From the NCBI GenBank assembly GCA_027563935.2, contig CM050450.1:92378439-92442438 (forward strand): a stretch of 64,000 nt of DNA. Direction: 5' to 3'. The stretch is from Costus lasius (Eukaryota > Streptophyta > Magnoliopsida > Zingiberales > Costaceae). This document shows positions 5,566 through 60,100 of this stretch, piece after piece; positions within the stretch are counted from its first letter, which is position 1, and the number at the start of each line of letters is the position of its first letter. The notes beneath the pieces are model-generated. The model ran no database searches. It was not told where the DNA came from and was given only the letters and a program-made list of their open reading frames with translations. Both the position numbers and the translations under genes were made by a program.

Positions 5566-5867
5566 GGTGTTCGTTGCTGCAGAAATCTACAACAATGCAA
5601 GAACAGCAAGGTCAGTATCAATGTATAGAATCAATCCAGGACTTAAGAAAGATTCTTTTTCTCACTATTTTATCTGGCTGAAAAATCCAGCAAAACAGCC
5701 CGAAAGAGTGGAACTCTTTTAGTGAGATGGGATCCAGATTTCATACTTGGTCTCCGCGTCCCGCTCAGGCGAGATAAGATGCACAGAGATGACAAGCACT
5801 AATTTCTGGTAGGCTGTCCCAGCCAATCGCCAACCCGTGCGATTCCCCTTCACCTGGGCAATCCAGC

Positions 5868-16600: not shown

Positions 16601-17604
16601 CCTACAGCAACAGCAGCAACCCATGCCCCGTTTCCAACTCGTAGGTCCACCTCATGCTGTCCCACCTGTCTTCTTCTCTTGAGTTCCTGTACATTTGAAC
16701 AAATGTGAACTCCACATGCAGTGTCCAACACCCATGAAACAGAAGAAGAAGAAATCATGACTTCCGTCACGTAAATACCTGAGCCAGAAGGAATGCTTCC
16801 CCTGTTGACTCCTTGGAGCGCTTTATAGTCCTTTTTCCAGTGACCTGGTTGGCCACAATGGAAACATCTGTATTCCTTTGACCGCTTCAGCTTTTGCTTC
16901 AGATCCTTGTTGTAGTTCTTGACTGGGGCTTTGCCCTTCTTCCCCTTCTTCTTGTTCCTTGAAGGAAACATCAAGACAGAGGTTGAAGGCTTTCCCTTCA
17001 GAGTCTCCTCAGTAGTCAAGAGCATGTTCAGCAGCTCTGCCGGAGTACAGTCGATTTTGTTCATATTAAAGTTAATGATGAACGCATCGAAAGAGGCCGG
17101 GAGAGACTGCAGAATAATGTCTACAGCAAGCTCCTGATTGATGGTATGTCCCAGTTTCTCTAGAGACTCCTTGTACCCAATCATCTTGAGCACATGAGCC
17201 CCCACTAGACTCCCTTCTGCCAGTTTGCTCTGAAAGAAAAGTTTTGTCAGATTATAGCGTTCAGTCCTCGCCTGTGCAGCATACAACAGCTTGAGGTTCG
17301 CTATAATATCAATAGCCGACATATCCTCATGCTGACGCTGCAGCTGTGGCGTCATCGACGCAAGCATCAGGCAAGCGACATCAATGCTATCATTGACATG
17401 CTTTTCATAAGCTTCACGAACCGCCCTTGCGGCGTTCGGAGCGGGTTGAGGCGGTATCGCCGTCTCGAGGACATACAGTTTCCTCTCTGCCTTAAGAATG
17501 ATCTTAAGGTGTCCGTACCAGTCTGAGAAGTTCGGCCCAGCAAACTTCTCGCGTTCCAGTAGGGATCGCACATTGAAATTCGTGGTGTTCGTTGCTGCAG
17601 GTAT
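13699..17604 (-). pseudogene. gag-pol polyprotein of element C, one TGA stop and no gag ATG
   Basis: All copia domains are recognisable in order: gag, CCHC knuckle, protease, integrase, RT (YVDD) and RNase H. One stop, TGA at 14545-14547, separates RT from the last 280 or so residues, which are otherwise open to 13699. The site equivalent to the gag ATG is ACG (17581-17583), so a conventional start is missing. The frame is nevertheless open back to the predicted splice acceptor at 17604. The final cysteine of the CCHC knuckle is tyrosine, which should impair RNA binding. The arginine after the integrase catalytic glutamate is glycine. Probably non-autonomous. Confidence 0.93.
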
Positions 17605-19476: not shown

Positions 19477-21141
19477 TGATAGTCCCCTAAATCTAAGGGG
19501 GGCGAAACCCTAAAGTGGCACAAACATAATATGGGCAGCAGATGCTAGGGTTTCATAGGATCGAAAACATGTCACATGATCAACTTTTAACAACATGTAT
19601 TCATGATAAGAATTCATACCATAGCCATTTCTGGATGGCGCCTTGGAAGCAAAAACGCAAATGCCTTTTCTCCAAAGATGACGCACACAATGAGAAGGCG
19701 ACTACTTCCTTGGCGACTTTGTGCTAGCAAATCTTCAAGGAGTCCTTCGTATGGAGGATATGAGATCTCTTGCGGCTAGGTCGATGAAGCTCTTGCACCC
19801 CTCTTTTCGTGTAGCCTTTTCACCACACGAGAGCGAGAGCCATAAAGAGGCGACGAGTGCAACATTCTCGTTGAATGTGGGAGCGTGGCTTCTAAAAATA
19901 GCAAGCCAAAAACTCGCCTCATACTCTCATGCGATCATGCGTTCACTTCAAGTGAACCAATCGCTCCTCTTTGAACCGAGCCATGGTTCAATTGCATTTG
20001 GTTCAAAGACCAAATCAAACCAGCCCAAGCCTTTAGTCCAGATCAAATTAAACCCCTAAGGCTTAAGATCTGACCGTTGATCTCTTGATGCTCTTGATCT
20101 CACCAATCTAGCATCAATTCTCTCAATCGAAGCTTACCGATCTCAAGCCCTAATCAATCAAACATGATCAGACCAGATCTCACTTTCAATCAGAGATTAA
20201 ATCCCTTTAAAACTGAATCCAAACAATTCAGTCCACACGATCTAACTTAAGTAAGCCATATCATCAAATTGTGCGACCCTAAGGGTTTTCTTTAAATGTC
20301 GTAACGATAACTTACGTTATCACGATCAGTGAGGGGTATCTAGCAACACATCACTGTCTCCCGATATAAAGAAAAGAGTCTTCCAAGACTACACCCAAAA
20401 CACAGCACAAGTGTGAATCCAACTCACAAGGCATACATGCTTCCTCTGCCACTGGATGTTCTTTATTGGACAAGCCTGTCAAGCTCGTAACTCCAATATG
20501 ATGAGCATGATTAGATCAGATGAACACAGTCATCTGGGTATGGCCATACACTTTCTCAATCATCTCATCCAGGGGGCCCCTTTAGAACATCACACTCCAA
20601 TTAAGGAGACGGCATTCCTATATCTATCACTAGTGCCCTAACATGACTCAAGCTCACCATCCAAGATAGTCTATAATCATTATGTTTCAAATGATATTGA
20701 ACTACCTCAAAACAATGACAATCATCATTTAGAAACACAAGTGATCTCAAGTCAAAGGAAATGTGCCACTTGTACACATACAAGGATTATTCACATTGTG
20801 ACAAGCAATTGAATATCCTAGTAGGGTCTGTCCAGTACATCCAATGTACCCATGAGTCTACATCTTATTCCATGCTCGAAGCATCCTATAAGATTAGAAC
20901 ACATATTAGTCTCAATCATATCAAGGCTGTCTCATGTTCACCAAGATATATCGACTAAGGACTTTACTGCATGTCAGCCCAGCTGAACAGCATTTGAGAC
21001 ATTATTCAGAAGTACACTTATTACAGCAGACAAGGTAACAACCTGAATAACAACCATTGCCTTTATAAACTAAAAAGTTTATACATGATACTGTTACTAT
21101 CCCAAGGCCTCAAACATTAGCCTTAAGGGCATACCCCAACA
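19477..21141 (-). repeat. 5' LTR of element C
   Basis: Near-identical to 12013-13678. It ends with CCCCAACA at 21141 (the LTR start on the minus strand), followed by the target duplication CACAC. Confidence 0.95.
19620..19628 (-). other. Candidate LTR mini-exon of element C (start codon)
   Basis: Minus strand ATG GCT ATG is followed by GTATGA. It is in phase with gag across the acceptor at 17605/17604. C has no ATG at the normal gag start, so this is the only evident start for its frame. Confidence 0.58.
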
Positions 21142-23992: not shown

Positions 23993-23993
23993 C

Positions 23994-26599: not shown

Positions 26600-28304
26600 T
26601 GTTGGGGTATGCCCTTCAGGCTAATGTTTGAAGCCTTGGGATTATTTCAGTATCATGTATAAACTCTATGTTTATAAAGGCAATGGTTGTTATTCAGGTT
26701 GTTATATCATCTGCTGCAATATGTATACTTCTGAATAATGTCTCAATGCTGTTCAGCTTGGCTGACATGCAGTATTGTCCTTAGTCGAGATATCTTGGTG
26801 AACATGAGACAGCCTTGATATGATTGAGACTAATATGTGTTCTAATCTTATAGGATGCTTCGAGCGTGGAATAAGATGTAGACTCATGGGTACATTGGAT
26901 GTACTGGACAGACCCTACTAGGATATTCAATTGCTTGTCACAATCTGAATAATCCTTGTATGCAAACAAGTGGCATATTTCCTCTGACTTGAGATCACTT
27001 GTGTTTCTAAATGATGATTGGCATTGTTTTGAGGTAGTTTAATATCATTTGAAACATAATGGTTATAGACTATCTTGGATGATGAGCATGAGTCATGTTA
27101 GGGCACTAGTGATAGATATAGGATTGCCGTCTCCTTGTTTGGAGTGTGATGTTCTATTGGGGCCCCCTGGATGAGATGATTGAGAAAGTGTATGGCCATA
27201 CCCAGATGACTATGTCTCATCTGATCTAATCATTCTCATCATATTGGAATTACAGGCTTGACACGCTTGTCCAATAAGAACATCCAGTGGCAAAGGAAAC
27301 ACATATGTCAAGTGACTTGTGTTCACACTTGTGCTGTGGTTTGGGTGTAGTCTTGGAAGACTCTTTCCTTTCTATCGGGAGACAGTGATGTGTTGCTAGA
27401 TACCCCTCACTGATCGTGATAACATAAGTTATCGTTACCGACATTTAAAGGAAACCCTTAGGGTCGCACAATTTGATGATATGGCTTACTTAAGTCAGAT
27501 CGTGTGGACTGAATTATTTTGGTTCAGTTTAAAGGGATTTAAACTCTGATTGTAAGTGAGATCTGGTCTAATCATGTTTGATTGATTAGGGCTTGAGATC
27601 GGTAAGCTTCGATCGAGAGATTGGATGCTAGATCGGTGAGATCAAGAGCATCAAGAGATGAATGGTCAGATCTTGAGCCTTTTGGTTTAATATGATCTGG
27701 ATCCAGGCTTGGTCTAATTTGGTCCTTGAACCAAATTTAATTGAACCGGCTCATCACATGAGCGCATGGTTCAAAGGGGAAGAAGTGGTGATCGGTTCAC
27801 TTGGAGTGAATGCATGAACGTTAAGTGCTTTCTATATTTGGAAGTTGGCGTTCCAAATTAGATGCACGCCTCCACGTTCAAGGGGAACGTTTTTGTCTCC
27901 TCGCCCACTTTCTTCTCTCGCTATCTCTCTTCCTCTAGAGGCATTCATTCTCGTGTGGAGAAGTCTTGACGCTCAAGGAGAGGTCTCGGCCAAGCAATCA
28001 AGTCATCTCATCCCTTCCATTCGACAAGGATTCTTGGAGAACTTTGCTAGCACAAAGATCAACAAGGAGTAGGCGATCACATCTTGTGTGCGCATCTTTT
28101 GGAGGAGATCCCTTTCGATCTCTGCTTCCAAGGCGCCATCCAAAGCAATGGCGATGGTATGACTCCTTTTCGATGTATACATGTTTTAGTTGATCATATG
28201 ACATACATGCTATCGATCTAGAAGCCCTAGCTTCCACTATGCAAATTTTATATGCGCCTATTTAGGGTTTCGCCCCCCCCCCCTTGGCTTTAGGGGACCT
28301 TTCA
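26600..28304 (+). repeat. 5' LTR of element D (1705 bp)
   Basis: It starts TGTTGGGGTATGCCC and ends GACCTTTCA. It has a long C-run near 28272-28283 as part of the terminal C-run/G-run hairpin. It nearly matches 31466-33151. Confidence 0.95.
28148..28156 (+). other. Candidate LTR mini-exon of element D (start codon)
   Basis: ATG GCG ATG is followed by GTATGA. It is in phase with gag through the acceptor at 30130/30131. D lacks the usual gag ATG. Confidence 0.58.
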
Positions 28305-28306
28305 AT

Positions 28307-30130: not shown

Positions 30131-31477
30131 ATTACTGCAGCAACGAACACCACAGCGTTCAATGTGCGATCCCTACTGGAAAGGGAGAAGTTTGCTGGAC
30201 CAAACTTCTCAGACTGGTACGGACACCTTAAGATTATTCTTAAGGCTGAGAGGAAACTGTATGTCCTCGAGACGGCTATACCGCCTCAACCCGCTCCGAA
30301 CGCCGCAAGGGCGGTTCGGGAAGCTTATGAAAAGCACGTCAACGATAGCATTGATGTCGCTTGCCTGATGCTAGCGTCTATGACGCCACAGCTGCAGCGT
30401 CAACATGAAGATTTATCTGCTATTGAAATAATAGCAAATATCAAGTTGTTGTATGCTGCACAGGCAAGGACTGAACGCTACAATTTGACTAAACTTTTCT
30501 TTCAGAGCAAACTGGCTGAAGGGAGTCCAGTGGGAGCTCACGTACTCAAGATGATTGGGTACAAGGAGGCTCTAGAGAAACTGGGACACACCATCAATCA
30601 GGAGCTTGTTGTAGACATCATTCTTCAGTCTCTCCTGGCTTCTTTTGATCCGTTCATCATTAATTTTAATATGAACAAGATCGACTGTACGCCGGCAGAG
30701 TTACTGAACATGCTCTTGACTACTGAGCAGACTCAGTCTCGTGAGAAGGGAACGCCTTCATCCTCTGTCCTAATGGTTCCTTCTAGGAACAAGAAGAAGG
30801 GGAAGAAGGGCAAAGCCCCTGTCAAGAGCTACAACAAGGCTCTAAAGCAAAAGATAAAGCGATCAAAGGAATACAGATGTTTCCATTGTGGCCAGTTAGG
30901 TCACTGGAAAAAGGACTGTAAAGCGCTCCAAGGAGACAAGAAGGGAAGTAAGCCTTTCGCTTCTGGCTCAGATATTTATGTGACTGAAGTCATGGTATCT
31001 TCTTCTTCTATTTCATGGGTGTTGGACACTGCATGTGGAGTTCACATTTGTTCAAATCTACAGGAACTCAAGAGAAGAACACAGGTGGGACAGCATGAGG
31101 TGGACCTACGAGTTGGAAAAGGGGCACGGGTTGCTGCTGTTGCTGTAGGAGAATATCACATCTCATTACCATCTGGTCTTGTATTAGAACTGGACAATTG
31201 TTATTTTGTACCAAGCATAACCAAGAATATTATCTTTATTCCTGCTCTTGTCAGGAAAGGGTTTTCCTTTGAATGCAAATTTTCAAAGTGTTACATTTCT
31301 TTTGATAATATTGTTTATGCTACTGGGTCAATTACCAATGGGTTATTCATGTTGGACATGGAATGTTCAATACAACAGATTGATATTAAGAAAGCCAAGT
31401 ATGCTGATGACAGCACCTTGCTATGGCATAGTCGTTTAGGCCATATTAACAGGAAGCGCATTAAGGCTAATGTTTGA
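30131..31477 (+). pseudogene. Truncated gag-pol of element D (gag, protease, start of integrase)
   Basis: The frame is open from the predicted splice acceptor through gag, an intact CCHC knuckle, the protease D-T-A motif and the W-H-S-R-L-G-H integrase zinc motif. It then runs into LTR sequence and stops at 31477. The position of the gag ATG reads ACA, so no local ATG start exists. Compared with F there is a short insertion before the basic SRNKKKGKKG stretch. Integrase core, RT and RNase H are deleted, so any activity would need enzymes supplied by another copy. Confidence 0.92.
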
Positions 31478-33151
31478 AGCCTTGGGATTATTTCAGTATC
31501 ATGTATAAACTCTATGTTTATAAAGGCAATGGTTGTTATTCAGGTTGTTACATCATCTGCTGCAATATGTATACTTCTGAATAATGTCTCAATGCTGTTC
31601 AGCTTGGCTGACATGCAGTATTGTCCTTAGTCGAGATATCTTGGTGAACATGAGACAGCCTTGATATGATTGAGACTAATATGTGTTCTAATCTTATAGG
31701 ATGCTTCGAGCGTGGAATAAGATGTAGACTCATGGGTACATTGGATGTACTGGACAGACCCTACTAGGATATTCAATTGCTTGTCACAATCTGAATAATC
31801 CTTGTATGCAAACAAGTGGCATATTTCCTCTGACTTGAGATCACTTGTGTTTCTAAATGATGATTGGCATTGTTTTGAGGTAGTTTTATATCATTTGAAA
31901 CATAATGGTTATAGACTATCTTGGATGATGAGCATGAGTCATGTTAGGGCACTAGTGATAGATATAGGATTGTCGTCTCCTTGTTTGGAGTGTGATGTTC
32001 TATTGGGGCCCCCTGGATGAGATGATTGAGAAAGTGTATGGCCATACCCAGATGACTATGTCTCATCTGATCTAATCATTCTCATCATATTGGAATTACA
32101 GGCTTGACACGCTTGTCCAATAAGAACATCCAGTGGCAAAGGAAACACATATGTCAAGTGACTTGTGTTCACACTTGTGCTGTGGTTTGGGTGTAGTCTT
32201 GGAAGACTCTTCCCTTTCTATCGGGAGACAGTGATGTGTTGCTAGATACCCCTCACTGATCGTGATAACGTAAATTATCGTTACCGACATTTAAAGGAAA
32301 CCCTTAGGGTCGCACAATTTGATGATATGGCTTACTTAAGTCAGATCGTGTGGACTGAATTATTTTGGTTCAGTTTAAAGGGATTTAAACTCTGATTGTA
32401 AGTGAGATCTGGTCTGATCATGTTTGATTGATTAGGGCTTGAGATCGGTAAGCTTCGATCGAGAGATTGGATGCTAGATCGGTGAGATCAAGAGCATCAA
32501 GAGATGAATGGTCAGATCTTGAGCCTTTTGGTTTAATATGATCTGGATCCAGGCTTGGTCTAATTTGGTCCTTGAACCAAATTTAATTGAACCGGCTCAT
32601 CACATGAGCGCATGGTTCAAAGGGGAAGAAGTGGGGATCGGTTCACTTGGAGTGAATGCATGAACGTTAAGTGCTTTCTATATTTGGAAGTTGGCGTTCC
32701 AAATTAGATGCACGCCTCCACGTTCAAGGGGAACGTTTTTGTCTCCTCGCCCACTTTCTTCTCTCGCTATCCCTCTTCCTCTAGAGGCATTCATTCTCGT
32801 GTGGAGAAGTCTTGACGCTCAAGGAGAGGTCTCGGCCAAGCAATCAAGTCATCTCATCCCTTCCATTCGACAAGGATTCTTGGAGAACTTTGCTAGCACA
32901 AAGATCAACAAGGAGTAGGCGATCACATCTTGTGTGCGCATCTTTTGGAGGAGATCCCTTTCGATCTCCGCTTCCAAGGCGCCATCCAAAGCAATGGCGA
33001 TGGTATGACTCCTTTTCGATGTATACATGTTTTAGTTGATCATATGACATACATGCTATCGATCTAGAAGCCCTAGCTTCCGCTATGCAAATTTTATATG
33101 CGCCTATTCAGGGTTTCGCCCCCCCCCCCCTTGGCTTTAGGGGACCTTTCA
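31466..33151 (+). repeat. 3' LTR of element D, first bases missing
   Basis: It begins at GCTAATGTTTGAAGCC, after the shared junction bases TTAAG (31461-31465), and ends GACCTTTCA. AATTC follows. Confidence 0.94.
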
Positions 33152-35202: not shown

Positions 35203-36449
35203 TGTTGGGGTATGCCCTTAAGGCTAATGTTTGAGGCCTTGGGATTGTAAGAGTATCATGTATAAACTTTTAAGTTTATAAAGGCAATAGTTGTTATTCA
35301 GGTTGTTACCTTGTCTGCTGTAATAAGTGTACTACTGAATAATGTCTCAAAGCTGTTCAGCTAGGCTGACATGCAATAATGTCCTTAGTCGATATATCTT
35401 GGTGAACATGAGACAGCCTTGATATGGTTAAGACTAATATGTGTTCTAATCTTATAGGATGCTTCGAGCATGGAATAAGATGTAGACTCATGGGTACATT
35501 GGATGTACTGGACAGACCCTACTAGGATATTCAATTGTTTGTCACAATGTGAATAATCCTTGAATGCTGCAAGTGGCACATTTCCTCTGACTTGAGATCA
35601 CTTGTGTTTTCTAAATGATGATTGTCATTGTTTTGAGGTAGTTCAATATCATTTGAAACATAATGGTTATAGACTATCTTGGATGGTGAGCTTGAGTCAT
35701 GTTAGGGCACTAGTGATAGACAAAGGATTGCCGTCTCCTTGTTTAAGGAGAGTGATGTTCTAAAGGGGCCCCCTGGATGAGATGATTGAGAGAGTGTATG
35801 GCCATACCCAGGTGACTGTGTTCATCTGATCTAGTCATGCTCATCATATTGGAGCTACAAGCTTGACACGCTTGTCCAATAAGAACATCCAGTGGCAAAG
35901 GAAACATGTTTGCCTTGTGAGTTGGATTCACACTTGAGCTATGTTTTGGGTGTAGTCTTGGAAGACTCTTTCCTTTATATCGGGAGACAGTGATGTGTTG
36001 CTAGATACCCCTCACTGATCGTGATAACGTAAGTTATCGTTACCGACATTTAAAGGAAACCCTCAGGGTCGCATAATTTGATGATATGGCATACTTAAGT
36101 CAGATCGTGTGGACTGAATTGTTTTGGTTCAGTTTAAAGGGATTTAAACTCTGATTGTAAGTGAGATCTGGTCTGATCATGTTTGATTGATTAGGGCTTG
36201 AGATCGGTAAGCTTCGATCGAGAGTGGTGATGCTAGATCGATCAGATCAGAAGCGTCAGATGATGAATGGTCAGATCTAGGACCTTGGGGTCTAATTCGA
36301 TCTAGACTTAATGTTTGGGCTGATTTGGTTTAATCATTGAACCAAAGAAATTGAACCGGCTCATGGGTTGAGCGCATGGTTCATATGGGAGAAGAGAGAT
36401 GCGCTTGGTTCACTTGGTGAACGCATAACGCATGTAGTCAAGGCATTGC

Positions 36450-36457
36450 TATTTTTG
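36450..36457 (+). promoter_or_regulatory. Possible TATA-like box in F LTR
   Basis: GCTATTTTTGGAA, with similar sequence at the same place in G (TATTTTTA at 57820-57827), C and D. It is followed by CT-rich sequence. It is a weak match to a TATA box. Confidence 0.3.
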
Positions 36458-36748
36458 GAATGTTCGGTTTCAAAGAGGGAACGTTTCCACGTTCGGAAAA
36501 AGGCCTCCTCTCTATTCTCCTCGCTCAATTTCGCTCTTGGTTGAGACGACTCACGGCTTGCGTTGTGGAGGTCGACAACAAGAGGATTCGGCCAAGCGAT
36601 CATCTCTTCATCCCTTCAACCAATCAAGAAATCTTTGGAGCCTTGCTAGCACAAGTCGCGCCAAAGAAGTAGGTCTTCTTCCTCTTGTGTGCGACAACCT
36701 TTGGAGGAAATCTCTCTTGCTTTCTTCTTCCAAGACTCCATCCAAGAG

Positions 36749-36757
36749 ATGGCGACG
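36749..36757 (+). other. Candidate LTR mini-exon of element F (start codon)
   Basis: ATG GCG ACG is followed by GTATGG. It is in phase with the acceptor at 38683/38684 and gag. Unspliced reading from this ATG stops after eleven codons, so unspliced RNA would not make the polyprotein from it. Confidence 0.6.
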
Positions 36758-36904
36758 GTATGGATCCTTCTCTTATCTATCTAGACATTTGAAAGTTAAT
36801 CATATGCGATATTAAGATCTATGAAAACCCTTCTTCCGCTTGCAAAATTTTATGCGCCACCCCAATAGGGTTTTCGCCCCCCTCTCGAAAGGGGTTCCAT
36901 CAAC

Positions 36905-36916
36905 TGGTATCAGAGC
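36905..36916 (+). other. Primer-binding site of element F (tRNA-iMet)
   Basis: TGGTATCAGAGC, two bases after the LTR end CCATCA. Confidence 0.93.
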
Positions 36917-38164
36917 CGGTTTATATATATGCATATGATTGCTTGATGCTATTTTGTGATCCATGTCCCATGTTTGCTTAGATCTATAGGTTACATGCGA
37001 AATTGGTAGCATATGCTTTTATGTTTGCGCATGTTTAGTAGGCGCATCTTTGTTGTTGATGTTTTATCAAAAGAATATCACTTGCGCGCCTATCATTAGA
37101 CTAAGCGCCTACTATAAACCCTTAGACGGGTTAGTAGGGTTGAAGTCATCCTCTAGGTTAGATCCAACTAGTCTGATCAGACCATCTGACAGCCTAGATG
37201 GGTCGACCAGATAGCACCCTTGCGCAAGCAAATGGTGGCTATAGGTCGACTGCATCATAGGTGTGTAGCGATGTCTGGTTGAGACGTTTGTTGAACGCAC
37301 ATGAGTTAAGCCCGGGCTCACACCCGTTTGCCAGACCTCATTGTGGTTGTTCAGCCCTTGGCGCATGCATAGTTGACCATTGGGTCGACTCAAGTCAGTT
37401 AGGACTTGGTGCATGCAAGGGCACTGGATCTGACTAGTTTGGATGAGTGGATCCCTATTAATGTACCGTTGTAAGGTTGTAGAGCATATAAGAGAATTAA
37501 AATTGATGCCAATGGGGTTTTCGAAATTTTATTTTCTTATCCTGGATCACATGATGTTTGATGCCATATTGCTTGTTTATTTATTCTTATGTGGGCTGCC
37601 CATGTTAAATGTTTGCTGTGCTGGGGCCTGCGTGCCTGAATTGAAAAGTAAATTAATTATTGTGATCTGCGTATCACATTGTTTTTAATTTATAAATGTT
37701 ATTGACCTGCGAGTCAATCTTGTCTAGATAGATTAATTTGTAAATTAATCAGAGAAGAGCACAGAGTACATTTGGCAGAGGCGCATGCAGCAGAGGCTTG
37801 ACCAGGTGGGAGGTCTAGGGTTCGACCCTAGGACCAGGCGCATCTTCCTGGTGGGCGCACCTGAGCTGCAGTTGGCGCTTGGCCCTGGTTTGGGCCAGAT
37901 GAGCAGCAAAAGTCCCATGAAGAAAAGCAAGTGAAGACTTAAGTGATATTAAGGTCTTACTTAGGCTATGGGCTTTTACCACATAAGATCCATGCTTTCT
38001 TTTATTGTTTAATATTAGAATTGCATGATTAGTTTATCTTCTGCTATCACCATAGGAATTGCATGATAGTGAAGAAGATAAAAGACCGTTAAAATCCAAC
38101 GACGAAATATCAAGCTCGTAAGCCTTCTGACGCGAAACCTCACTGTTCTGATTATCGTTGGAGC

Positions 38165-38403
38165 CGTGTTGTACCCACTCAGTGGGCACGTCCATCTATC
38201 TTCAGACGGTGCGGGATTACACCTGCGTGTTGCAGAGAAGGGATTTATCGCTTCTCGTTGCTCAGCATAGCACGTGGTGGTCCAGGGAGTAGGTCGGGTT
38301 AGTTTGACCATGTAGGCTACATATGTGGCGCATATGGTAGCACATGGAGGCAGCCATCTGTGGGATCAGAGACTGTGTTGTACCAACTCAGTTGGCACAG
38401 TCT
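38165..38403 (+). promoter_or_regulatory. Paired leader hairpins of element F
   Basis: Hairpin 1 (38165-38190): outer CGTG/CACG, bulge TTGTA, inner CCCA/TGGG, loop CTCAG. Hairpin 2 (38370-38403): outer AGACTGTG/CACAGTCT, bulge TTGTA, inner CCAA/TTGG, loop CTCAG. Between the two, C-G becomes U-A in the outer stem and C-G becomes A-U in the inner stem, so base pairing is kept while sequence changes. Both lie only in unspliced RNA. Confidence 0.7.
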
Positions 38404-38497
38404 GCTGGATTGCCCAGATGAAGGGGAATCGCACGGGTTGGCGATTGGCAGGGACTGCCTACCAGAAATTAGTGCTTGTACTCTCTGTGCATCTTAT

Positions 38498-38511
38498 CTC
38501 GCCTGAGCGGG
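38498..38511 (+). promoter_or_regulatory. Third leader hairpin of element F
   Basis: CTCGC-CTGA-GCGGG: a 5-bp stem (one G-U) with a 4-nt loop, after the conserved GTGCATCTTAT. Element B has CCCAC-CCTC-GTGGG at the matching place. Confidence 0.5.
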
Positions 38512-38704
38512 ACGCGGAGACCAAGTATGAAATCTGGATCCCATCTCACTAAAAGAGTTCTACTCTTTCGGGCTGTTTTTCTGGATTTTTCAGCCAGATA
38601 AAATAGTGAGAAAAAGAATCTTTCTTAAGTCCTGATTGATTCTTGACATTGATACTGACCTTGCTGTTCTTGCATTGTTGTAGATACCTGCAGCAACGAA
38701 CACC

Positions 38705-41700
38705 ATGAGCTTCAATGTGCGATCCCTACTGGAAAGGGAGAAGTTTGCTGGGCCGAACTTCTCGGACTGGTATGGACACCTTAAGATTGTTCTTAAGGCA
38801 GAGAGGAAACTGTATGTCCTCGAGACGGCAATACCGCCGCAGCCCGCTCCGAACGCCGCAAGGGCGGTTCGGGATGCCTATGAAAAGCACGTCAATGATA
38901 GCATTGATGTCGCTTGCCTGATGTTAGCGTCTATGACGCCACCGCTGCAGCGTCAGCATGAGGATATGTCTGCTATAGACATGATAGCAAACCTCAGGAT
39001 GCTGTATGCTGCACAGGCGAGGACAGAACGCTATAATTTGACAAAGCTGTTCTTTCAGAGCAAACTGGCTGAAGGGAGCCCAGTGGGAGCTCACGTGCTC
39101 AAGATGATTGGGCACAAGGAGGCTCTAGAAAAACTGGGGCATACCATGAATCAGGAGCTTGCTGTAGACATTATTCTGCAGTCTCTCCCGCCTTCTTTCG
39201 ATGCGTTCATTATTAACTTTAATATGAACAAAATCGATTGTACTCCGGCAGAGCTGCTGAATATGCTCTTGACTACTGAGGAAACTCTGAAGGGAAAGCC
39301 TTCAACCTCTGTCTTAATGGTTCCTTCTAGGAACAAGAAGAAGGGGAAGAAGGGCAAGGCCCCTGTCAAGAGTTACAGCAAGGCTCTGAAGCAAAAAGTT
39401 AAGCGGTCAAAGGAATACAGATGTTTCCACTGTGGCCAGCTGGGTCACTGGAAAAAGGACTGTAAAGCGCTCCAAGGAGACAAGAGGGGAAGCTTCGCTT
39501 CTGGCTCGGGTATATACGTGACGGAAGTCATGGTTTCATCTTCTTCTATTTCATGGGTGTTGGACACTGCATGTGGAGTTCACATTTGTTCAAATGTACA
39601 GGAACTCAAGAGAAGAAGACAGGTGGGACAGTATGAGGTGGACCTACGAGTTGGAAACGGGGCACAGGTTGCTGCTGTTGCTGTAGGAGACTATTTCATC
39701 TCTTTACCATCTGGACTTGTATTGGAACTAAACAGTTGTTATTTTGTTCCCAGTATAACTAAAAATATTATCTCCATTCCTGCTCTTGTCAGGAAGGGAT
39801 TTTCCTTTGAATGCAAGATTTCAAAGTGTGTTTTATCTTATGATAATATTGTTTATGCAACTGGTTCAATTAACAACGGGTTATTCATGTTGGACATGGA
39901 ATGTTCGATACAAAATATTGATAATAAGAAAGCCAAGTATGCTGATGACAGCACCTTGCTATGGCATAGTCGTTTAGGCCATATTAACAAGAAATGCATT
40001 AAGCGGTTGCATGATCATGGACTGCTGGGATCATTCTCCTATGAGGAGATTGATACATGCAAGGCTTGTTTGATGGGTAAAATGACGAAGTCACCTTTTC
40101 CTAATAAAGGTCAAAGGGCTTCAGGTTTACTTGACCTTATACACAGTGATGTGTGTGGGCCATTTAGTAAACATGCCAGAGGTGGCTCTCAGTACTTCAT
40201 TACCTTTACTGATGATTTCAGTAGGTATGGTTATGTCTATCTGATGAGACATAAAAGTGAATCTTTTGACAAGTTCAAAGAATTCAAGAATGAAGTACAA
40301 AATCAGCTAGGCCGAAATATCAAGGCACTTCGCTCAGATCGAGGTGGTGAATACCTAAGTCGAGAGTTTACTGACTATCTGAAGGAGTGTGGGATTATCT
40401 CACAGCTCACTCCACCAGGAACACCGCAATGGAATGGTGTGTCCGAGAGGAGAAATAGAATGTTACTTGATATGGTTCGTTCTATGATGAGTCAGGCTAC
40501 TCTACCTTACTCCTTTTGGGGATTTGCACTGGAGACAGCTGCAAAGGTACTAAACCGAGTGCCATCCAAGGCAGTTTCTAAGACGCCATATGAGCTATGG
40601 TATGGGAAACAGCCGAGCTTGACATTTATCAGGATCTGGGGTTGCGAGGCTTATGTCAAAAAGCTCGCCTCTGGGAAACTAGAGAGCAGATCTGAAAAAT
40701 GTATCTTTGTCGGTTACCCTAAGGAAACTAAGGGTTATTATTTCTTCGATCCCAAGGAGAACAAGGTATTTGTTGCTCGGACGGCCATATTTCTTGAGAA
40801 GGAGTTTCTTCTGCAAGAGGCCAGTGGGAGAGAAATAAAGCTGGATGAAAATCCAGAAGAAGGACAAAGTAGTCAAGCACAGTTGGATGAGCCTGAGCCG
40901 GTAGATCAGGTTATTGAACAACCTGAGGCTCAGATATCACGGGAACCGCGAAGATCGGGAAGGATCCGTCGACAGCCTGAGCGCTATGACGGAGTCTACA
41001 TCATTGATAATGATGAACCCCTCACTTATGCGGATGCGGTCAGTGGACCGGACTCAGCTAGATGGCTTGAGGCTATGCGAGCCGAGATGGACTCCATGTC
41101 AGATAACCAAGTCTGGGATTTGGTTGATCCGCCTCCGGGAGTTATCCCTATAGGCTGTAAATGGATCTTCAAGAAGAAGATTGACATGGATGGTAACGTG
41201 GTTACCTATAAAGGCAGGCTAGTTGCGAAAGGTTTCAAACAAATCTACGGGATAGATTATGATGAAACTTTCTCACCTGTAGCAATGTTTAAGTCTATTC
41301 GGATTCTTTTCGCGATAGCTGCATATTACGATTATGAGATCTGGCAGATGGATGTGAAGATGGCTTTCCTTAATGGAAATCTGGATGAGGATGTGTATAT
41401 GACACAACCTGAAGGTTTCACTAATCCATCAGATCGTCATAAAATATGCAAGTTAAAGAAGTCCATTTATGGACTGAAACAAGCATCTAGAAGCTGGAAT
41501 ATTCGTTTTGATGAATCAGTCAGTGAATTTGGTTTCATCAAGAACGAAGATGACCCGTGTGTATATAAGAGGTTTAGTGGGAGCGTAATTACTTTCCTAG
41601 TCCTCTACGTCGATGATATCTTAATCATTGGAAATTACATTCCTGAAATGCATGCAGTTAAGGCATGGTTAAGGAAATGTTTCCAGATGAAAGATCTAGG

Positions 41701-42589
41701 AGAAGCAGCCTATGTTCTAGGTGTGAAGATCTACAGGGATAGATCTAAGAGGCTTCTCGGGCTGTGCCAGAGTACTTACATCGATAAGGTCCTGGAAAGA
41801 TTCCATTTAGAGAATTCTAAAAGGGGATATCTTCCAGTCAGACATGGTCTGAATCTTTCGAAGAGTCAGTGTCCACAAACACAGACTGAGAAAGATGAAA
41901 TGGACAATATGCCTTATGCTTCGGCTATTGGGTCCATAATGTATGCGATGTTGTGTACTCGCCCAGACGTCGCTTACGGGTTAAGCGTGACCAGTCGGTT
42001 CCAAAGTAATCCAGGTCAGGCACACTGGATTGCGGTCAAGAACATTTTAAAATATCTGCGGAGGACCAAAGATATGTTCTTGATATATGGTGGTCAGGAA
42101 GAACTCAGTATTGAAGGATATACTGACGCTTCGTTCCAGTCGGACCAGGATGATTTCCGATCGCAATCAGGCTATGTTTTTAGCTTGAATGGAGGAGCAG
42201 TGGTGTGGAAGAGTTTCAAACAGTCAACTGTTGCTGATTCCACAACAGAAGCCGAGTATGTTGCAGCCTCGGAAGCATCCAAGGAGGCAGTGTGGATTCG
42301 TAAGTTCGTGAGTGAACTTGGTGTTGTTCCTTCGAGTGCAGATCCTTTGGTTATCTTCTGTGATAACACTGGAGCAATCGCACAAGCAAAGGAACCACGG
42401 TCGCACCAGAAGTCCAAGCACATACAGAGACGGTTTCACTTGATCCGGGAGATCATAGATCGTGGCAAGATCAAAGTCTGCAAGGTTCATACAGATGACA
42501 ATCTGGCAGACCCGCTTACCAAGCCTCTGGCGCAGCAGAAGCATGAGAAGCACTGTAATAATATGGGTTTGAGGTTTCTCAACCATTAG
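38705..42589 (+). CDS. Intact Ty1/copia gag-pol polyprotein (element F)
   Basis: 1294 codons from the ATG at 38705; a splice from the LTR may add ten codons. Order by residue: gag (about 1-235); basic stretch, then CCHC knuckle (240-253); protease with D-T-A at 287-289; integrase HHCC (about 421-455) and catalytic D482, D545, E581 (35 residues between the last two); linker; reverse transcriptase with YVDD at 968-971; RNase H acidic residues near 1141, 1182 and 1220. It packages, copies and integrates the element in virus-like particles. Gag and pol share one frame, as is usual for copia. Oddities: the conserved D-V-K-T-A-F motif of RT reads D-V-K-M-A-F, and G-N-D after YVDD reads G-N-Y, either of which could lower activity. 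Confidence 0.96.
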   Translation: MSFNVRSLLEREKFAGPNFSDWYGHLKIVLKAERKLYVLETAIPPQPAPNAARAVRDAYEKHVNDSIDVACLMLASMTPPLQRQHEDMSAIDMIANLRMLYAAQARTERYNLTKLFFQSKLAEGSPVGAHVLKMIGHKEALEKLGHTMNQELAVDIILQSLPPSFDAFIINFNMNKIDCTPAELLNMLLTTEETLKGKPSTSVLMVPSRNKKKGKKGKAPVKSYSKALKQKVKRSKEYRCFHCGQLGHWKKDCKALQGDKRGSFASGSGIYVTEVMVSSSSISWVLDTACGVHICSNVQELKRRRQVGQYEVDLRVGNGAQVAAVAVGDYFISLPSGLVLELNSCYFVPSITKNIISIPALVRKGFSFECKISKCVLSYDNIVYATGSINNGLFMLDMECSIQNIDNKKAKYADDSTLLWHSRLGHINKKCIKRLHDHGLLGSFSYEEIDTCKACLMGKMTKSPFPNKGQRASGLLDLIHSDVCGPFSKHARGGSQYFITFTDDFSRYGYVYLMRHKSESFDKFKEFKNEVQNQLGRNIKALRSDRGGEYLSREFTDYLKECGIISQLTPPGTPQWNGVSERRNRMLLDMVRSMMSQATLPYSFWGFALETAAKVLNRVPSKAVSKTPYELWYGKQPSLTFIRIWGCEAYVKKLASGKLESRSEKCIFVGYPKETKGYYFFDPKENKVFVARTAIFLEKEFLLQEASGREIKLDENPEEGQSSQAQLDEPEPVDQVIEQPEAQISREPRRSGRIRRQPERYDGVYIIDNDEPLTYADAVSGPDSARWLEAMRAEMDSMSDNQVWDLVDPPPGVIPIGCKWIFKKKIDMDGNVVTYKGRLVAKGFKQIYGIDYDETFSPVAMFKSIRILFAIAAYYDYEIWQMDVKMAFLNGNLDEDVYMTQPEGFTNPSDRHKICKLKKSIYGLKQASRSWNIRFDESVSEFGFIKNEDDPCVYKRFSGSVITFLVLYVDDILIIGNYIPEMHAVKAWLRKCFQMKDLGEAAYVLGVKIYRDRSKRLLGLCQSTYIDKVLERFHLENSKRGYLPVRHGLNLSKSQCPQTQTEKDEMDNMPYASAIGSIMYAMLCTRPDVAYGLSVTSRFQSNPGQAHWIAVKNILKYLRRTKDMFLIYGGQEELSIEGYTDASFQSDQDDFRSQSGYVFSLNGGAVVWKSFKQSTVADSTTEAEYVAASEASKEAVWIRKFVSELGVVPSSADPLVIFCDNTGAIAQAKEPRSHQKSKHIQRRFHLIREIIDRGKIKVCKVHTDDNLADPLTKPLAQQKHEKHCNNMGLRFLNH

Positions 42590-42609: not shown

Positions 42610-44309
42610 TGTTGGGGTATGCCCTTAAGGCTAATGTTTGAGGCCTTGGGATTGTAAGAGTATCATGTATAAACTTTTAAGTTTATAAAGGCAATAGTTG
42701 TTATTCAGGTTGTTACCTTGTCTGCTGTAATAAGTGTACTACTGAATAATGTCTCAAAGCTGTTCAGCTAGGCTGACATGCAATAATGTCCTTAGTCGAT
42801 ATATCTTGGTGAACATGAGACAGCCTTGATATGGTTAAGACTAATATGTGTTCTAATCTTATAGGATGCTTCGAGCATGGAATAAGATGTAGACTCATGG
42901 GTACATTGGATGTACTGGACAGACCCTACTAGGATATTCAATTGTTTGTCACAATGTGAATAATCCTTGAATGCTGCAAGTGGCACATTTCCTCTGACTT
43001 GAGATCACTTGTGTTTTCTAAATGATGATTGTCATTGTTTTGAGGTAGTTCAATATCATTTGAAACATAATGGTTATAGACTATCTTGGATGGTGAGCTT
43101 GAGTCATGTTAGGGCACTAGTGATAGACAAAGGATTGCCGTCTCCTTGTTTAAGGAGAGTGATGTTCTAAAGGGGCCCCCTGGATGAGATGATTGAGAGA
43201 GTGTATGGCCATACCCAGGTGACTGTGTTCATCTGATCTAGTCATGCTCATCATATTGGAGCTACAAGCTTGACACGCTTGTCCAATAAGAACATCTAGT
43301 GGCAAAGGAAACATGTTTGCCTTGTGAGTTGGATTCACACTTGAGCTATGTTTTGGGTGTAGTCTTGGAAGACTCTTTCCTTTATATCGGGAGACAGTGA
43401 TGTGTTGCTAGATACCCCTCACTGATAGTGATAACGTAAGTTATCATTACCGACATTTAAAGGTAACCCTCAGGGTCGCACAATTTGATGATATGGCTTA
43501 CTTAAGTCAGATCGTGTGGACTGAATTGTTTTGGTTCAGTTTAAAGGGATTTAAACTCTGATTGTAAGTGAGATCTGGTCTGATCATGTTTGATTGATTA
43601 GGGCTTGAGATCGGTAAGCTTCGATCGAGAGTGGTGATGCTAGATCGATCAGATCAGAAGCGTCAGATGATGAATGGTCAGATCTAGGACCTTGGGGTCT
43701 AATTCGATCTAGACTTAATGTTTGGGCTGATTTGGTTTAATCATTGAACCAAAGAAATTGAACCGGCTCATGGGTTGAGCGCATGGTTCATATGGGAGAA
43801 GAGAGATGCGCTTGGTTCACTTGGTGAACGCATAACGCATGTAGTCAAGGCATTGCTATTTTTGGAATGTTCGGTTTCAAAGAGGGAACGTTTCCACGTT
43901 CGGAAAAAGGCCTCCTCTCTATTCTCCTCGCTCAATTTCGCTCTTGGTTGAGACGACTCATGGCTTGCGTTGTGGAGGTCGACAACAAGAGGATTCGGCC
44001 AAGCGATCATCTCTTCATCCCTTCAACCGATCAAGAAATCTTTGGAGCCTTGCTAGCACAAGTCGCGCCAAAGAAGTAGGTCTTCTTCCTCTTGTGTGCG
44101 ACAACCTTTGGAGGAAATCTCTCTTGCTTTCTTCTTCCAAAACTCCATCCAAGAGATGGCGACGGTATGGATCCTTCTCTTATCTATCTAGACATTTGAA
44201 AGTTAATCATATGCGATATTAATATCTATGAAAACCCTTCTTCCGCTTGCAAAATTTTATGCGCCACCCCAATAGGGTTTTCGCCCCCCTCTCGAAAGGG
44301 GTTCCATCA
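42610..44309 (+). repeat. 3' LTR of element F (1700 bp)
   Basis: Same length as the 5' LTR with about ten substitutions. It ends GTTCCATCA, followed by CAGCC. Here one substitution creates an ATG upstream of the mini-exon position (near 43959) that the 5' LTR lacks. Confidence 0.96.
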
Positions 44310-44314: not shown

Positions 44315-45782
44315 TTGATATGGTTAAGACTAATATGTGTTCTAATCTTATAGGATGCTTCGAGCATGGAATAAGATGTAGACTCATGGGTACATTGGAT
44401 GTACTGGACAGACCCTACTAGGATATTCAATTGCTTGTCACAATCTGAATAATCCTTGTTTGCACTAAGTGGCACATGTCCTCTGACTTGAGATCACTTG
44501 TGTTTCTAAATGATGATTGTCATTGTTTTGAGGTAGTTCAATATCATTTGAAATATAATGGTTATAGACTATCTTGGATAATGATCATGAGTCAGGTTAG
44601 GACACTAGTGATAGATATAGGATTGCCGTCTCCTTAATTGGAGTGAGATGTTCTGAAGGCCCCCCCCCCTGAATGAGATGATTGAGAAAGTGTATGGCCA
44701 TACCCAGGTGAATATGTTCATCTGATCTAATCATGCTCATCATATTGGAGTCACAGGCTTGACACGCTTGTCCAATAAAAACATCCAGTGGCAAAGGAAA
44801 CATGTATGCCTAGTGAAGTGGATTCACACTTGTGCCGTGGTTTGGGTGTGGTCTTGGAAGACTCTTTCCTTTATATCGGGAGACAGTGATGTGTTGCTAG
44901 ATACCCCTCACTGATCGTGATAACGTGAGTTATCGTTACCGACATTTAAAGGAAACCCTCAGGGTCGCACAATTTGATGATATGGCTTACTTAAGTCAGA
45001 TCATGTGGACTGAATTGTTTCGGTTCAGTTTAAAGGGATTTAATCTCTGATTGTAAGTGAGATCTGGTCTGATCATGTTTGATTGGTTAGGGCTCAAGAT
45101 CGGTAAGCTTCGATCGAGAGAGTTGATGCTAGATCGGTGAGATCAGTAGCATCAAAAGATGAACGGTCAGATCTTGAACCTTAGGGTTTAATTTGATCTG
45201 GACCAATTCTTGGGCTGATTTGGTTTGGTCGTTGGACCAACTACATTGAACCGGCTCATATGTGAGCGCTTGGTTCATATGAGAGAAGAGATATGCGTTT
45301 GGTTCACTTCATGTGAACGCATAACGAATGTATTGAGGTCTTGCTAATTTTGGCATTTCGGTTTTTCCAAAGTGATGAACGTCTCAACGTTCGATCACAA
45401 GGCTTCTCTAACGCTCGTCTCCCTTTCGCTCTTGACGAAACACACACTCTTGCGTGGTGTAAGTTGACGAGAAGAAGGATCGGCCAAGAGAGACTTCATC
45501 ATCCCCTTCCATTCGACAAGGAAGCTTGGGTGCCTTGCTAGCACAAGGGACGCCAAGGAAGTAAGCGATCTTCATCTTGTGTGTGAACTTTTGGAGGAGA
45601 TCAAAGTTGCTCTCTTCTTCCAACGCACCATCCAAGCGATGGCCATGGTATGGATCTTATCCAATCTTTGCAAGTTGATCATTGAAACATACATGCGATC
45701 ATAGAGAACCTAGATTCCGCAAGAAAAGGTTTTACATGCGCCTATTAAGGTTTGCGCCCCCCTCTTGAAAGGGGTTCTCACA
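44315..45782 (+). repeat. Solo LTR S, right part
   Basis: It continues 35202 and ends GGTTCTCACA, followed by TAAGC (45783-45787). The rejoined LTR is about 1687 bp. It also carries the mini-exon: ATG GCC ATG at 45639-45647, followed by GTATGG. No internal region is present, so LTR-LTR recombination removed the element. Confidence 0.93.
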
Positions 45783-46972: not shown

Positions 46973-48671
46973 TGTTGGGGTATGCCCTTAAGGCTAATGT
47001 TTGAGGCCTTGGGATTGTATAAGTATCATGTAATAAACTCTTATGTTTATAAAAGGCATGGTTGTTATTCAGATTGTTACCTTATCTGCTGTAATAAGTG
47101 TACTTCTGAATAATGTCTCAAAGCTGTTCAGCTAGGCTAACAGACTATATGTCCTTAGTCGAGATATCTTGGTGAACATGAGACAGCCTTGATATGATTG
47201 AGACTAATATAAGTGCTAATCTTATAGGATGCTTCGAGCATGGAATAAGATGTAGACTCATGGGTACATTGGATGTACTGGACAGACCCTACTGGGATAT
47301 TCCATTGCTTGTCACAATGTGAATGATCCTTGTAAGCAGCAAGTGGCACATGTCCTCTGACTTGAGATCACTTGTGTTTCTAAATGATGATTGTCATTGT
47401 CTTGAGGTAGTTCAATATCATTTGAAATATAATGATTATAGACTATCTTGGATGGTGAGCTTGAATCAGGTTAGGGCACTAGTGATAGACATAGGATTGC
47501 CGTCTCCTTGTTTAAGGAGTGTGGTGTTCTAAGGGCCCCCCTATATGAGATGATTGAGATAGTGTATGGCCATACCCAGATGACTATGTGCATCTGATCT
47601 AATCATGCTCATCGTATTGGAGTTACAAGCTTGACCCGCTTGTCCAATAAGAACATCCAGTGGCAAAGGACACATGTATGCCTTGTGAATTGAGTCACAC
47701 TTGTGCTATGGTTTGGGAGTAGTCTTGGAAGACTCTTTCCTTTATATCGGGAGACAGTGATGTGTTGCTAGATACCCCTCACTGATCGTGATAACGTAAG
47801 TTATCGTTACCGACATTTAGAGGAAACCCTCAGGGTCGCACAATTTGGTGATATGGCTTACTTGAGTCAGATCGTATGGACTGGATTCTTTGAGTTCAGA
47901 TTAAAGGGATTTAATCTCTGATTGTAAGTGAGATCTGGTCTGATCATGTTTGATTGATTAGGACTTGAGATCGGTAAGCTTCGATCGAGAGAGGTGATGC
48001 TAGATCGGAGAGATCAAGGGCATCAGATGATGAATGGTTAGATCATGAGCCTTGGGGGTTCAATTTGGTCTAGACCAAGTGGCTAGAGCTATTTCGGTTT
48101 GGTTTGTTGAACCAAAGCCAATTTGACATTTTGGCTTGAACCGGTTCACAATGGTGAACGCATGGTTCAATCCTAAAATGCGTTTGGGTTGAGTTGAGCG
48201 CATGGACTTGATGAGCTTCCATTTATGGAAAGTCATCAAGGGCCGGTTTCACTCACTTCAATGCCAAAAACGCATATGCGTTTGCGCTCTTCTCTTCAAC
48301 GCATTCGACTTTGGTTGGGTGGTGATTGACGAAGAGAAGGAGAGGTTGAGCAAGAGGAGCTCTCGGCCAAGAGGTTCATCATCCCCTTCCATTCGACACT
48401 TGAAGGCTTGGGTGTCTTGCTAGCACAAGAGACCGCAAGGAGTAAGCATCTTCACCTTGTGTGTGAACTTGTGGAGGAGATCTACTTTGTTCTCTTTATC
48501 CAAGCCGACTTCCAAGCATATGGCGTTGGTATGATTTTTATCTCAATCTATTCAATCGATTATAGTTGAACATATGGCATGCAAATGATCTTGAACCCTT
48601 GCTTCCGCTTGCATATTTTACATTAGCGCCATGCTTAGGGTTTTGCCCCCTTATGATTAGGGGTTCCTACA
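46973..48671 (+). repeat. 5' LTR of element E (1699 bp)
   Basis: It starts TGTTGGGGTATGCCC and ends GGGGTTCCTACA. It has the central GATAAC-GTAA-GTTATC inverted repeat and the terminal C-run/G-run hairpin. Confidence 0.95.
48520..48528 (+). other. Candidate LTR mini-exon of element E (start codon)
   Basis: ATG GCG TTG is followed by GTATGA, in phase with gag through the acceptor at 50598/50599. No ATG lies between about 48280 and it. Confidence 0.58.
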
Positions 48672-48673
48672 AT

Positions 48674-50318: not shown

Positions 50319-50619
50319 GCTGGATTGCCAAGATGAAGGGGAATCGCACGGGTTGGCGATTGGCTGGGACAGCCTACCAGAAACTAGTGCTTGTCATCTC
50401 TGTGCATCTTATCTCGCCTGAGCGGGACGCGGAGACCAAGTATGAAATCTGGATCCCATCTCACTAAAAGAGTGTTTACTCTTTCGGACTGTTTACTGGA
50501 TTTTTCAGTCAGACAAAATAGTGAGAAAAGAATCTTTCTTAAGTCCTGGATTGATTCTGAAACATTGATACTGACCTTGCTGTTCTTGCTTGTTGTAGAT
50601 TCCTGCAGCAACGAACACC

Positions 50620-56585: not shown

Positions 56586-58280
56586 TGTTGGGGTATGCCC
56601 TTAAGGCTAATGTTTGAGGCCATGGGAATGTATCAGTATCATGTAATAAACTGTTATGTTTATAAAGGCATGGTTATTATTCAGTTGTTTACATTGTCTG
56701 CTGCAATATATGTTCTTCTGAATAATGTCTCAAAGCTGTTCAGCTAGGCTGACATGCTATAAGTCCTTAGTCGAGATATCTTGGTGAACATGAGACAGCC
56801 TTGATATGGTTGAGACTAATATGTGTTCTAATCTTATAGGATGCTTCGAGCATGGAATAAGATGTAGACTCATGGGTACAATGGATGTACTGGACAGACC
56901 CTACTAGGATGTTCAATTGTTTGTCACAATGTGAATATTCCTTGAATATGACAAGTGGCACATTTCCTCTGACTTGAGATCGCTTGTGTTTTCTGAATGA
57001 TGATTGTCATCATTTTGAGGTAGTTCAATATCATTTGAAACATAATGGTTATAGACTATCTTGGATGGTGAGCTTGAATCAGGTTAGGGCACTAGTGATA
57101 GACATAGGATTGCCGTCTCCTTGTTTAAGGAGTGTGATGTTCTAAAGGGGCCCCCTGGATGAGATGATTGAGAGAGTGTATGGCCATACCCAGGTGACAG
57201 TGTTCATCTGTTCTAATCATGCTCATCATATTGGAGTTACAAGCTTGACAGGCTTGTCCAATAAGAACATCCAGTGGCAAAGGAAATATGTATGCTTTGT
57301 GAGTTGATTCACACTTGTGCTGTATTTTGGGTGTAGTCTTGGAAGACTCTTTTCTTTATATCGGGAGACAGTGATGTGTTGCTAGATACCCCTCACTGAT
57401 CGTGATAATGAGAATTATCGTTACCGACATTTAAAGAAAACCCTCAGGGTCGCACAATTTGATGATATGGCTTACTTAAGTTAGATCGTGTGGACTGAAT
57501 TGTTTGGGTTCAGTTTAAAGGGATTTAATCTCTGATCGTAAGTGAGATCTGGTCTGATCATGTTTGATTGATTAGGGCATTAGATCGGTAAGCTTTGATC
57601 GAGAGATTGGATGCTAGATTGGTCAGATCAGGAGCATCAAAGAGATCGACGGTTAGATCTGGAGCCTTAGGGTTTAATTTGATCTAAGCCTTGTCGCTTG
57701 GCTTATTTGGTTTTTGGACCGAACCAACATGAACCGGCTCATGGATGAGCGCATGGTTCAAGGGTGAAGTGAGTTGCGATTGGGGTAAACCCATGACCGC
57801 AAGTGGTGAAGTGGTATGCTATTTTTAGATAGCACTTCCCTACGTGACCACGACTCACGATTCACGCCTTTCTCTTCTTGTCGTTTGACGCTCATCTCTC
57901 GCTGAAGAGCATCCATCTCTCGGGGTTTTTCCATTCGAGAAAGAGAGAGGTTGACGAAAATAAGGAGGAAGAAAATCGCCAAGCAAAGAAGATCTCCTTC
58001 CCTTCCATTCGAGAAGAACACCTTGACGCCTTGCTAGCACAAGGAGCATCAAGGAGTAGGCACATCTTTCATCTTGTGTGCGTATCTTCAGGAGGAGAGC
58101 GGCATCACTCTCTGCTTCCAAGGCGCCATCTAGAAATGGCTATGGTATGGTTCTATCTCATCTATGCAATCGGTTTTGTTAATCATATAACATGAAAGAT
58201 CCTAAGAAGCCCTCTCCGCTGCGTTCTCCCTTAATATGCGCCTCACTTGGGTTTCGCCCCCCCTTATCTGGGGACCTTCA
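56586..58280 (+). repeat. 5' LTR of element G (1695 bp)
   Basis: It starts TGTTGGGGTATGCCC and ends GGGGACCTTCA. Its central inverted repeat reads GATAAT-GAGA-ATTATC (57404-57419): both arms changed relative to F, keeping complementarity. Confidence 0.95.
58136..58144 (+). other. Candidate LTR mini-exon of element G (start codon)
   Basis: ATG GCT ATG is followed by GTATGG. It is the first ATG after about 57830, and in phase with gag through the acceptor at 60079/60080. Confidence 0.6.
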
Positions 58281-59798: not shown

Positions 59799-60100
59799 GC
59801 TGGATTGCCCAGATGAAGGGGAATCGCATGGGTTGGCGATCGGCAGGGAATGCCTACCGGAGATTAGTGCTTGTACTCTCTGTGCATCTTATCTCGCCTG
59901 AGCGGGACGCGGAGACCAAGTATGAAATCCGGATCCCATCTCACTAAAAGAGTACTACTCTTTCGGGCTGTTTTGCTGGATTTTTCAGCCAGATAAAATA
60001 GTGAGAAAAGGAATCTTTCTTAAGTCCTGATTGATTCTTAAACATTGATACTGACCTTGCTGTTCTTGCATTGTTGTAGATACCTGCAGCAACGAACACC

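Follow-up and report, generated by a model that had tools for sequence, protein, structure and literature searches.

A candidate gag-pol start codon in the long terminal repeat, joined to gag across a predicted leader intron, in a copia retrotransposon family of Costus lasius

The stretch of DNA analyzed here, hereafter the window, comprises 64,000 nucleotides (nt) of Costus lasius (GCA_027563935.2, contig CM050450.1, 92,378,439-92,442,438, forward strand) and was found by self-comparison to consist of nested, related plant Ty1/copia elements. Copies A and C are located on the minus strand and copies D, E, F and G on the plus strand, and S is a truncated solo long terminal repeat (LTR) of the same family. 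Eleven family LTRs were mapped, i.e., two each in A, C, D and E, the solo S, the 5' LTR of F, and one LTR common to F and G. The elements thus form one family of plant Ty1/copia LTR retrotransposons: the LTRs end in TG...CA, 5-bp target-site duplications are present (CAGCC on both sides of E, GTGTG for C and AATTC for D), and a primer-binding site (PBS), TGGTATCAGAGC, follows just after the LTR in A, C, D, E and G and in the diverged element B, and with one mismatch in F. The PBS is presumably complementary to initiator tRNA-Met. The gag-pol frames of E (1301 codons) and G (1300 codons) are uninterrupted from stop to stop, and the first 400 codons of E, the only segment scored, match a copia-type gag, a zinc knuckle and a Pol beta-barrel domain (PF14223, 9.7e-16; PF00098, 2.5e-6; PF22936, 1e-11). 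The sizes of the LTR, leader and polyprotein are BARE/Angela-like, and the family is not assigned below the copia level. The coordinates of the features are given in Table 1.

All 11 family LTRs contain the motif ATGGCNNNG immediately followed by GTATGR. The first-pass annotation had described ATG GCN NNG in front of GTATGR in the LTRs of six copies and in the solo LTR S, and this description proved exact in every family LTR. The sequence ATGGCNNNGGTATGR has 11 exact matches in the window, one per family LTR, with ~0.015 expected by base counting. A shuffle control of the donor motif was run at up to two mismatches and has little bearing on the exact form; it gave 16 matches against a shuffle mean of 8.6, and one of 100 shuffles reached 16 or more. 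When the seven distinct LTRs were aligned around this candidate mini-exon, with gap columns counted, 17% of the columns were invariant. The longest invariant runs were TTGCTAGCACAA (12 nt) and GGTATG (6 nt), followed by ATGGC and two further runs of 5 nt. Within the mini-exon, variation is confined to position 3 of the Ala codon and positions 1 and 2 of codon 3, the very sites that would be left free by a start codon, GC at +4/+5 and a G before the donor. A G is found at -3 of the ATG in five of the seven LTRs. Start codon and splice donor are also kept in the solo S (45639-45653) and in the 3' LTRs of A, C, D and E.

At its other end, the leader was said to finish with CTGAC, a T-rich tract and TTGTAG. 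Indeed, TACTGAC, a T-rich tract and TTGTAG precede gag in all six copies, and TTGTAG is followed in each by AT(A/T), one variable codon, and GCA GCA ACG AAC ACC. With up to three mismatches allowed, the acceptor pattern was matched six times in the window and never in 100 shuffles. The gag frame is open exactly up to this point, its in-frame stop being the acceptor TAG. The proposed introns measure 1926-2070 nt, in agreement with the 1.9-2.1 kb estimated earlier, and their lengths modulo 3 are 2, 2, 0, 0, 0 and 0 in the six copies. Despite this varying length, joining the mini-exon, always 9 nt, to the acceptor segment, always 21 nt and open, would be in frame in six of six copies and on both strands, as had been claimed. 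In all six, the segment from donor to acceptor includes the PBS. The unspliced leader is rich in ATGs, as also observed before, with 44-61 per proposed intron. When it is not spliced, the LTR ATG opens a frame of 4-21 codons, the length of which varies between copies.

The ATG that straightforward annotation would take as the start of gag was placed 21 nt past the acceptor in the first-pass annotation. It is present there in four of the six copies, where it is termed Met-8; it is replaced by ACG in C and by ACA in D. The seven residues in front of it, IPAATNT in E, were compared with related proteins. Two protein searches yielded 113 and 125 relatives (120 of the latter 125 listed, with overlap between the lists), and among the matches listed, identities were ~32-62%, all relatives bearing an organism name were from plants, many records being nameless, and MAANTNTLSLRS- or MANNTISLRS-like N-termini were frequent. 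No relatives were found in viral contigs searched by protein, where one stretch fitted a pattern and none was confirmed, nor in viral contigs and prokaryote genome contigs searched by pattern. IPAATNT, although N-terminal to the downstream ATG, aligns with the residues that follow the relatives' own Met. For a quantitative comparison, 88 of 208 proteins were used that start with Met and have the next conserved motif at most 25 residues away, together representing 41 distinct N-termini. The mean score of IPAATNT against these N-termini, which derive from predicted open reading frames or gene models and are hence themselves unproved, was 12.6 (12.6-12.9 for five gag copies). Open stretches preceding leader ATGs never attained this level (0 of 196), and open leader stretches did so once (1 of 1533).

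Table 1. Coordinates, in the window, of features of the copia family and of the diverged element B
Feature	Position	Strand	Remark
5' LTR of E	35203..36902	+	self-comparison; ends TGTTG...CA; duplication CAGCC flanking E
Invariant TTGCTAGCACAA of E	36643..36654	+	apex of predicted stem-loop, 106 nt before mini-exon
Mini-exon of E	36749..36757	+	ATG GCG ACG (Met-Ala-Thr), proposed gag-pol initiator
Proposed leader intron of E	36758..38683	+	1926 nt, GTATGG...TTGTAG, 44 ATGs
PBS of E	36905..36916	+	TGGTATCAGAGC, within proposed intron
Branch-point-like TACTGAC of E	38653..38659	+	invariant in 6/6 copies
Acceptor segment of E	38684..38704	+	ATA CCT GCA GCA ACG AAC ACC (IPAATNT), proposed start of exon 2
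gag-pol open frame of E	38684..42589	+	begins directly after acceptor TAG
Downstream gag ATG of E	38705..38707	+	Met-8
Mini-exon of A	7530..7538	-	ATGGCTTTG
Mini-exon of C	19620..19628	-	ATGGCTATG
Mini-exon of D	28148..28156	+	ATGGCGATG
Mini-exon of F	48520..48528	+	ATGGCGTTG
Mini-exon of G	58136..58144	+	ATGGCTATG
Mini-exon copy, solo LTR S	45639..45647	+	ATGGCCATG
Mini-exon copy, 3' LTR of A	136..144	-	
Mini-exon copy, 3' LTR of C	12156..12164	-	
Mini-exon copy, 3' LTR of D	32994..33002	+	
Mini-exon copy, 3' LTR of E	44156..44164	+	
Acceptor segment of A	5566..5586	-	
Acceptor segment of C	17584..17604	-	without downstream ATG
Acceptor segment of D	30131..30151	+	without downstream ATG
Acceptor segment of F	50599..50619	+	gag interrupted at about 50845
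Acceptor segment of G	60080..60100	+	
Leader 3' end of B, up to acceptor	10970..11008	-	GTTGTTGTAG

The earlier suggestion that the start of gag-pol resides in the LTR and is connected by leader splicing is thus supported, at the level of sequence, by several tests. Candidate start, donor, branch-point-like and acceptor signals are conserved, the reading frame is kept, and the PBS is located inside the predicted intron. Further support comes from the scarcity of upstream ATGs, from the loss of the downstream ATG in copies whose gag still appears to be under purifying selection, from the likeness of the residues before that ATG to Gag N-termini of other plants, from the ranks of the splice sites, and from the mini-exon of the diverged LTR Z. 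Hence, gag-pol is very probably a two-exon gene with its initiator in the LTR, spliced across a leader of ~2 kb. Exon 1 would consist of the untranslated 5' portion contributed by the LTR and the 9-nt coding mini-exon, Met-Ala-X. Removal of an intron of ~1.9-2.1 kb would eliminate the LTR end, the PBS and the leader, and exon 2 would begin seven codons ahead of the downstream ATG. On the spliced mRNA, cap-scanning ribosomes would reach the LTR ATG first, or nearly so, and begin gag-pol there. Because the PBS is in the intron, the spliced RNA should not allow normal priming of reverse transcription, and may serve solely as the mRNA for the whole of gag-pol. The unspliced RNA, on which a scanning ribosome would meet the short frame of the LTR AUG and then the 44-61 further AUGs, may mainly be the genome. 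Thus, with both the PBS and these ATGs inside the intron, reverse transcription of spliced RNA and scanning-based translation of unspliced RNA would both be minimal, and, as the simplest mechanism, splicing may decide the fate of the RNA by parting the translated from the reverse-transcribed pool. These roles in splicing, translation and packaging are inferred from the signals and their positions. With clearly less assurance, we consider it somewhat probable that this is a plant copia clade in which gag-pol translation is strictly dependent on splicing, with one type of RNA that is translatable and not copyable and another that is copyable and not translatable.

Several observations weigh against a two-exon gene or limit the evidence for it. 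The copies are related, so the counts given above are not independent. Scoring of splice sites with an approximate plant matrix ranked the donors among the 129-144 GTs (rank 10 in A, 1 in C, 4 in D, 6 in E, 6 in F and 3 in G) and the acceptors among the 144-153 AGs (ranks 3, 3, 4, 2, 1 and 4, respectively); the mini-exon donor was the top candidate in C only, and an AG 89-91 nt 5' of the acceptor outscored it in five of the six copies. In E, this competing AG is in the gag frame, but reads into the TAG at 38681-38683. The 212 nt 5' of the mini-exon contain a single ATG in the seven distinct LTRs together, against a shuffle mean of 14.5 and a minimum of 6 in 1000 shuffles, and 42 CATs; this depletion is a generous figure, since the length of 212 nt was picked post hoc, when the positions of the ATGs were already known. 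Over 300 nt upstream, at least one ATG is found in 10 of the 11 LTRs, with 2-3 in C and 6-7 in A; per LTR, these 300 nt contain 0-7 ATGs vs. 5-11 in the next 300 nt upstream. A single nearer ATG occurs in just one LTR of the pair in A (5' LTR, -62) and in E (3' LTR, -196). In four of the seven distinct LTRs, a CTAT(A/T)-type box lies at -273 to -317; none was found in those of A, S and F. Within this region of D, E and G, the TATA-like box is followed by no more than one ATG, at ~30 nt or less from it. In C, ATGs at -237 and -215 are located downstream of the box at -273, and the mini-exon ATG is, therefore, possibly not the first of its mRNA.

The older, decayed element B also belongs on this side of the balance. 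Its acceptor is kept, and exon 2 would begin at 10969 on the minus strand. The gag-like codons after the acceptor are in a phase other than that of the family, and a mini-exon with a length divisible by 3 would therefore be out of frame. Four ATGs lie between the TATA box and a donor-like site, and no recognizable in-frame start codon was found in B. Since B is decayed and several readings are possible, its start codon is left unassigned, and B supports the acceptor only. The diverged solo LTR Z, on the other hand, has its own first-ATG mini-exon, which differs in sequence, has a length divisible by 3 and occupies a similar position, after an ATG-free stretch of 441 nt. Mere kinship, i.e., letters inherited without function, would fit with the common ancestry of copies that all lie within one 64-kb window and with the lack of the start in B. 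Yet it is very improbable, the least likely of the explanations considered, as the motif is exact between flanks with so few invariant columns and as Z has a different mini-exon in a similar place.

Alternatively, the start of Gag might be Met-8, reached on unspliced RNA through internal entry, shunting or reinitiation, and the LTR motif might be a regulatory short upstream open reading frame like those in pararetroviral leaders. Such a start would make use of the ATG that four copies possess, and in unspliced RNA the LTR ATG does open a short frame. However, the length of that frame is not conserved, in contrast to GGTATG and the acceptor, a start at Met-8 would have to be reached in spite of the many ATGs of the intron, and the codons before Met-8 resemble coding residues of the relatives. 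Moreover, C and D, which look like one subfamily because they have several replacements in common vs. the other copies, lack that ATG, and with a synonymous divergence (dS) of 0.33 and a nonsynonymous divergence (dN) of 0.044 between their gag genes, their dN/dS is 0.13, so that Gag seemingly is selected as a protein there, although this ratio is a pairwise average that may cover time before the loss of the downstream ATG, which it does not date, and in that respect weakens the case for the LTR start. The dN/dS values of the remaining gag pairs are 0.00-0.16 (for F over 82 codons only). The motif as a regulatory short frame is therefore disfavored, and a Met-8 start is unlikely. Slightly less likely again is that the leader is spliced, with the LTR motif kept as a promoter, polyadenylation or RNA-processing element and initiation elsewhere. 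The invariant 12-nt element nearby shows no coding pattern, indicating that noncoding constraint does exist in this LTR region. Nevertheless, the variation in the mini-exon tracks codon positions, the family has few upstream ATGs and Z none over 441 nt, and all six copies preserve the frame across the junction, all of which favors the start codon in the LTR.

The first-pass annotation considered the arrangement not to be a standard description of plant copia elements, and in the accessible parts of the open-access literature no copia element was found described as having its gag start codon in the LTR or an intron in its leader. The intron is of an ordinary type in a copia element, used in an apparently undescribed way. 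In foamy viruses, the major splice donor is located in the LTR, Gag is made from full-length RNA, and the start codon lies outside the LTR. As proposed for the Costus family, foamy viruses translate a main gene, pol, from spliced RNA, but their Pol is a separate protein with its own spliced RNA (PMC7828637). Plant LTR elements are generally free of introns, with Ogre and EVADE as exceptions according to a 2025 review (PMC12786077). In EVADE/EVD of Arabidopsis, a copia element, splicing to shGAG controls gag expression, similar to what is proposed here; there, however, the splice removes the protease domain and translation ends after Gag, and no relocated initiator is mentioned in the portions available (PMC12786077). 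Ogre of legumes is likewise a plant LTR element with a functional intron, but it belongs to the gypsy superfamily, and its splice joins open reading frames and not LTR to gag (PMC12786077, PMC3735527).

How RNA is divided between translation and reverse transcription is a major question in LTR retrotransposons (PMC3735527). BARE1 has an intron of 104 nt where pr begins and produces distinct capped and uncapped RNA pools, and BARE2 has lost its gag start codon through an 8-bp deletion (PMC3735527). Splicing of the BARE1/BARE2 intron yields Gag only, and the pools are distinguished by promoter, cap and poly(A); the available text describes neither an intron in the leader nor a start codon in the LTR of BARE (PMC3735527), whereas the proposed splice in the Costus family would excise the PBS and provide the initiator. 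In long reads of triticale, 13 of 15 copia GAG transcripts contained a single intron, and one primer pair across a large intron gave products of 560 bp from RNA and 3200 bp from DNA (PMC7765848). Spliced GAG RNAs are thus known from sunflower and triticale long reads, with no LTR start codon mentioned in the parts available (PMC7730604, PMC7765848). For a putative BARE-like second intron in the Costus family, just a donor-like site was noted in three of the five copies scanned, a CAG/GTAT near the end of gag that is present in A, C and G and absent from D and E.

If splicing brings the start codon in and takes the PBS out, a mechanism predicted from sequence alone, the annotated N-terminus of Gag would shift, and an element that has lost the conventional gag ATG would not necessarily have lost Gag. 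In such clades, elements without a conventional gag ATG, possibly among them BARE2-like "Gag-less parasites", would then deserve a second look. Furthermore, the solo LTR and the 3' LTRs would carry a ready exon, consisting of a start codon and a donor, which could possibly fuse to host genes as an alternative first exon.

The invariant TTGCTAGCACAA, found in seven of seven distinct LTRs, precedes all 11 mini-exons and forms the apex of a possible stem-loop located 102-106 nt before the mini-exon (36625-36674 on the plus strand in E, with equivalents at the other mini-exons). Of the seven consensus pairs, three show two-sided changes and three are broken in two of the seven sequences; the covariation term is near zero, and z-scores of single folds range from -0.85 to -2.40. 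Its counterparts are CTAGCACC in Z and CTAGTACC in B. No Rfam match was obtained at gathering scores in 35000-39000. As CTAG is self-complementary, a dimerization or packaging signal is conceivable.

The window also records the history of its insertions. A nest of three levels is found at 11409-25879, where C is inserted in the solo LTR Z and Z in element B. F and G (within 46973-64000) form a tandem with one LTR in common (56586 to ~58280), which suggests unequal recombination, and gag of F is broken by an insert at ~50845-53842. In copy D (26600-33152), pol is missing together with the first bases of the 3' LTR; since the LTRs of D are 99% identical, this deletion probably occurred later than the insertion. 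Finally, an in-frame TGA at codon 1020 of gag-pol is common to A (2527-2529, minus strand) and C (14545-14547, minus strand), with no stop in E and G; A and C may have inherited it and spread in trans.
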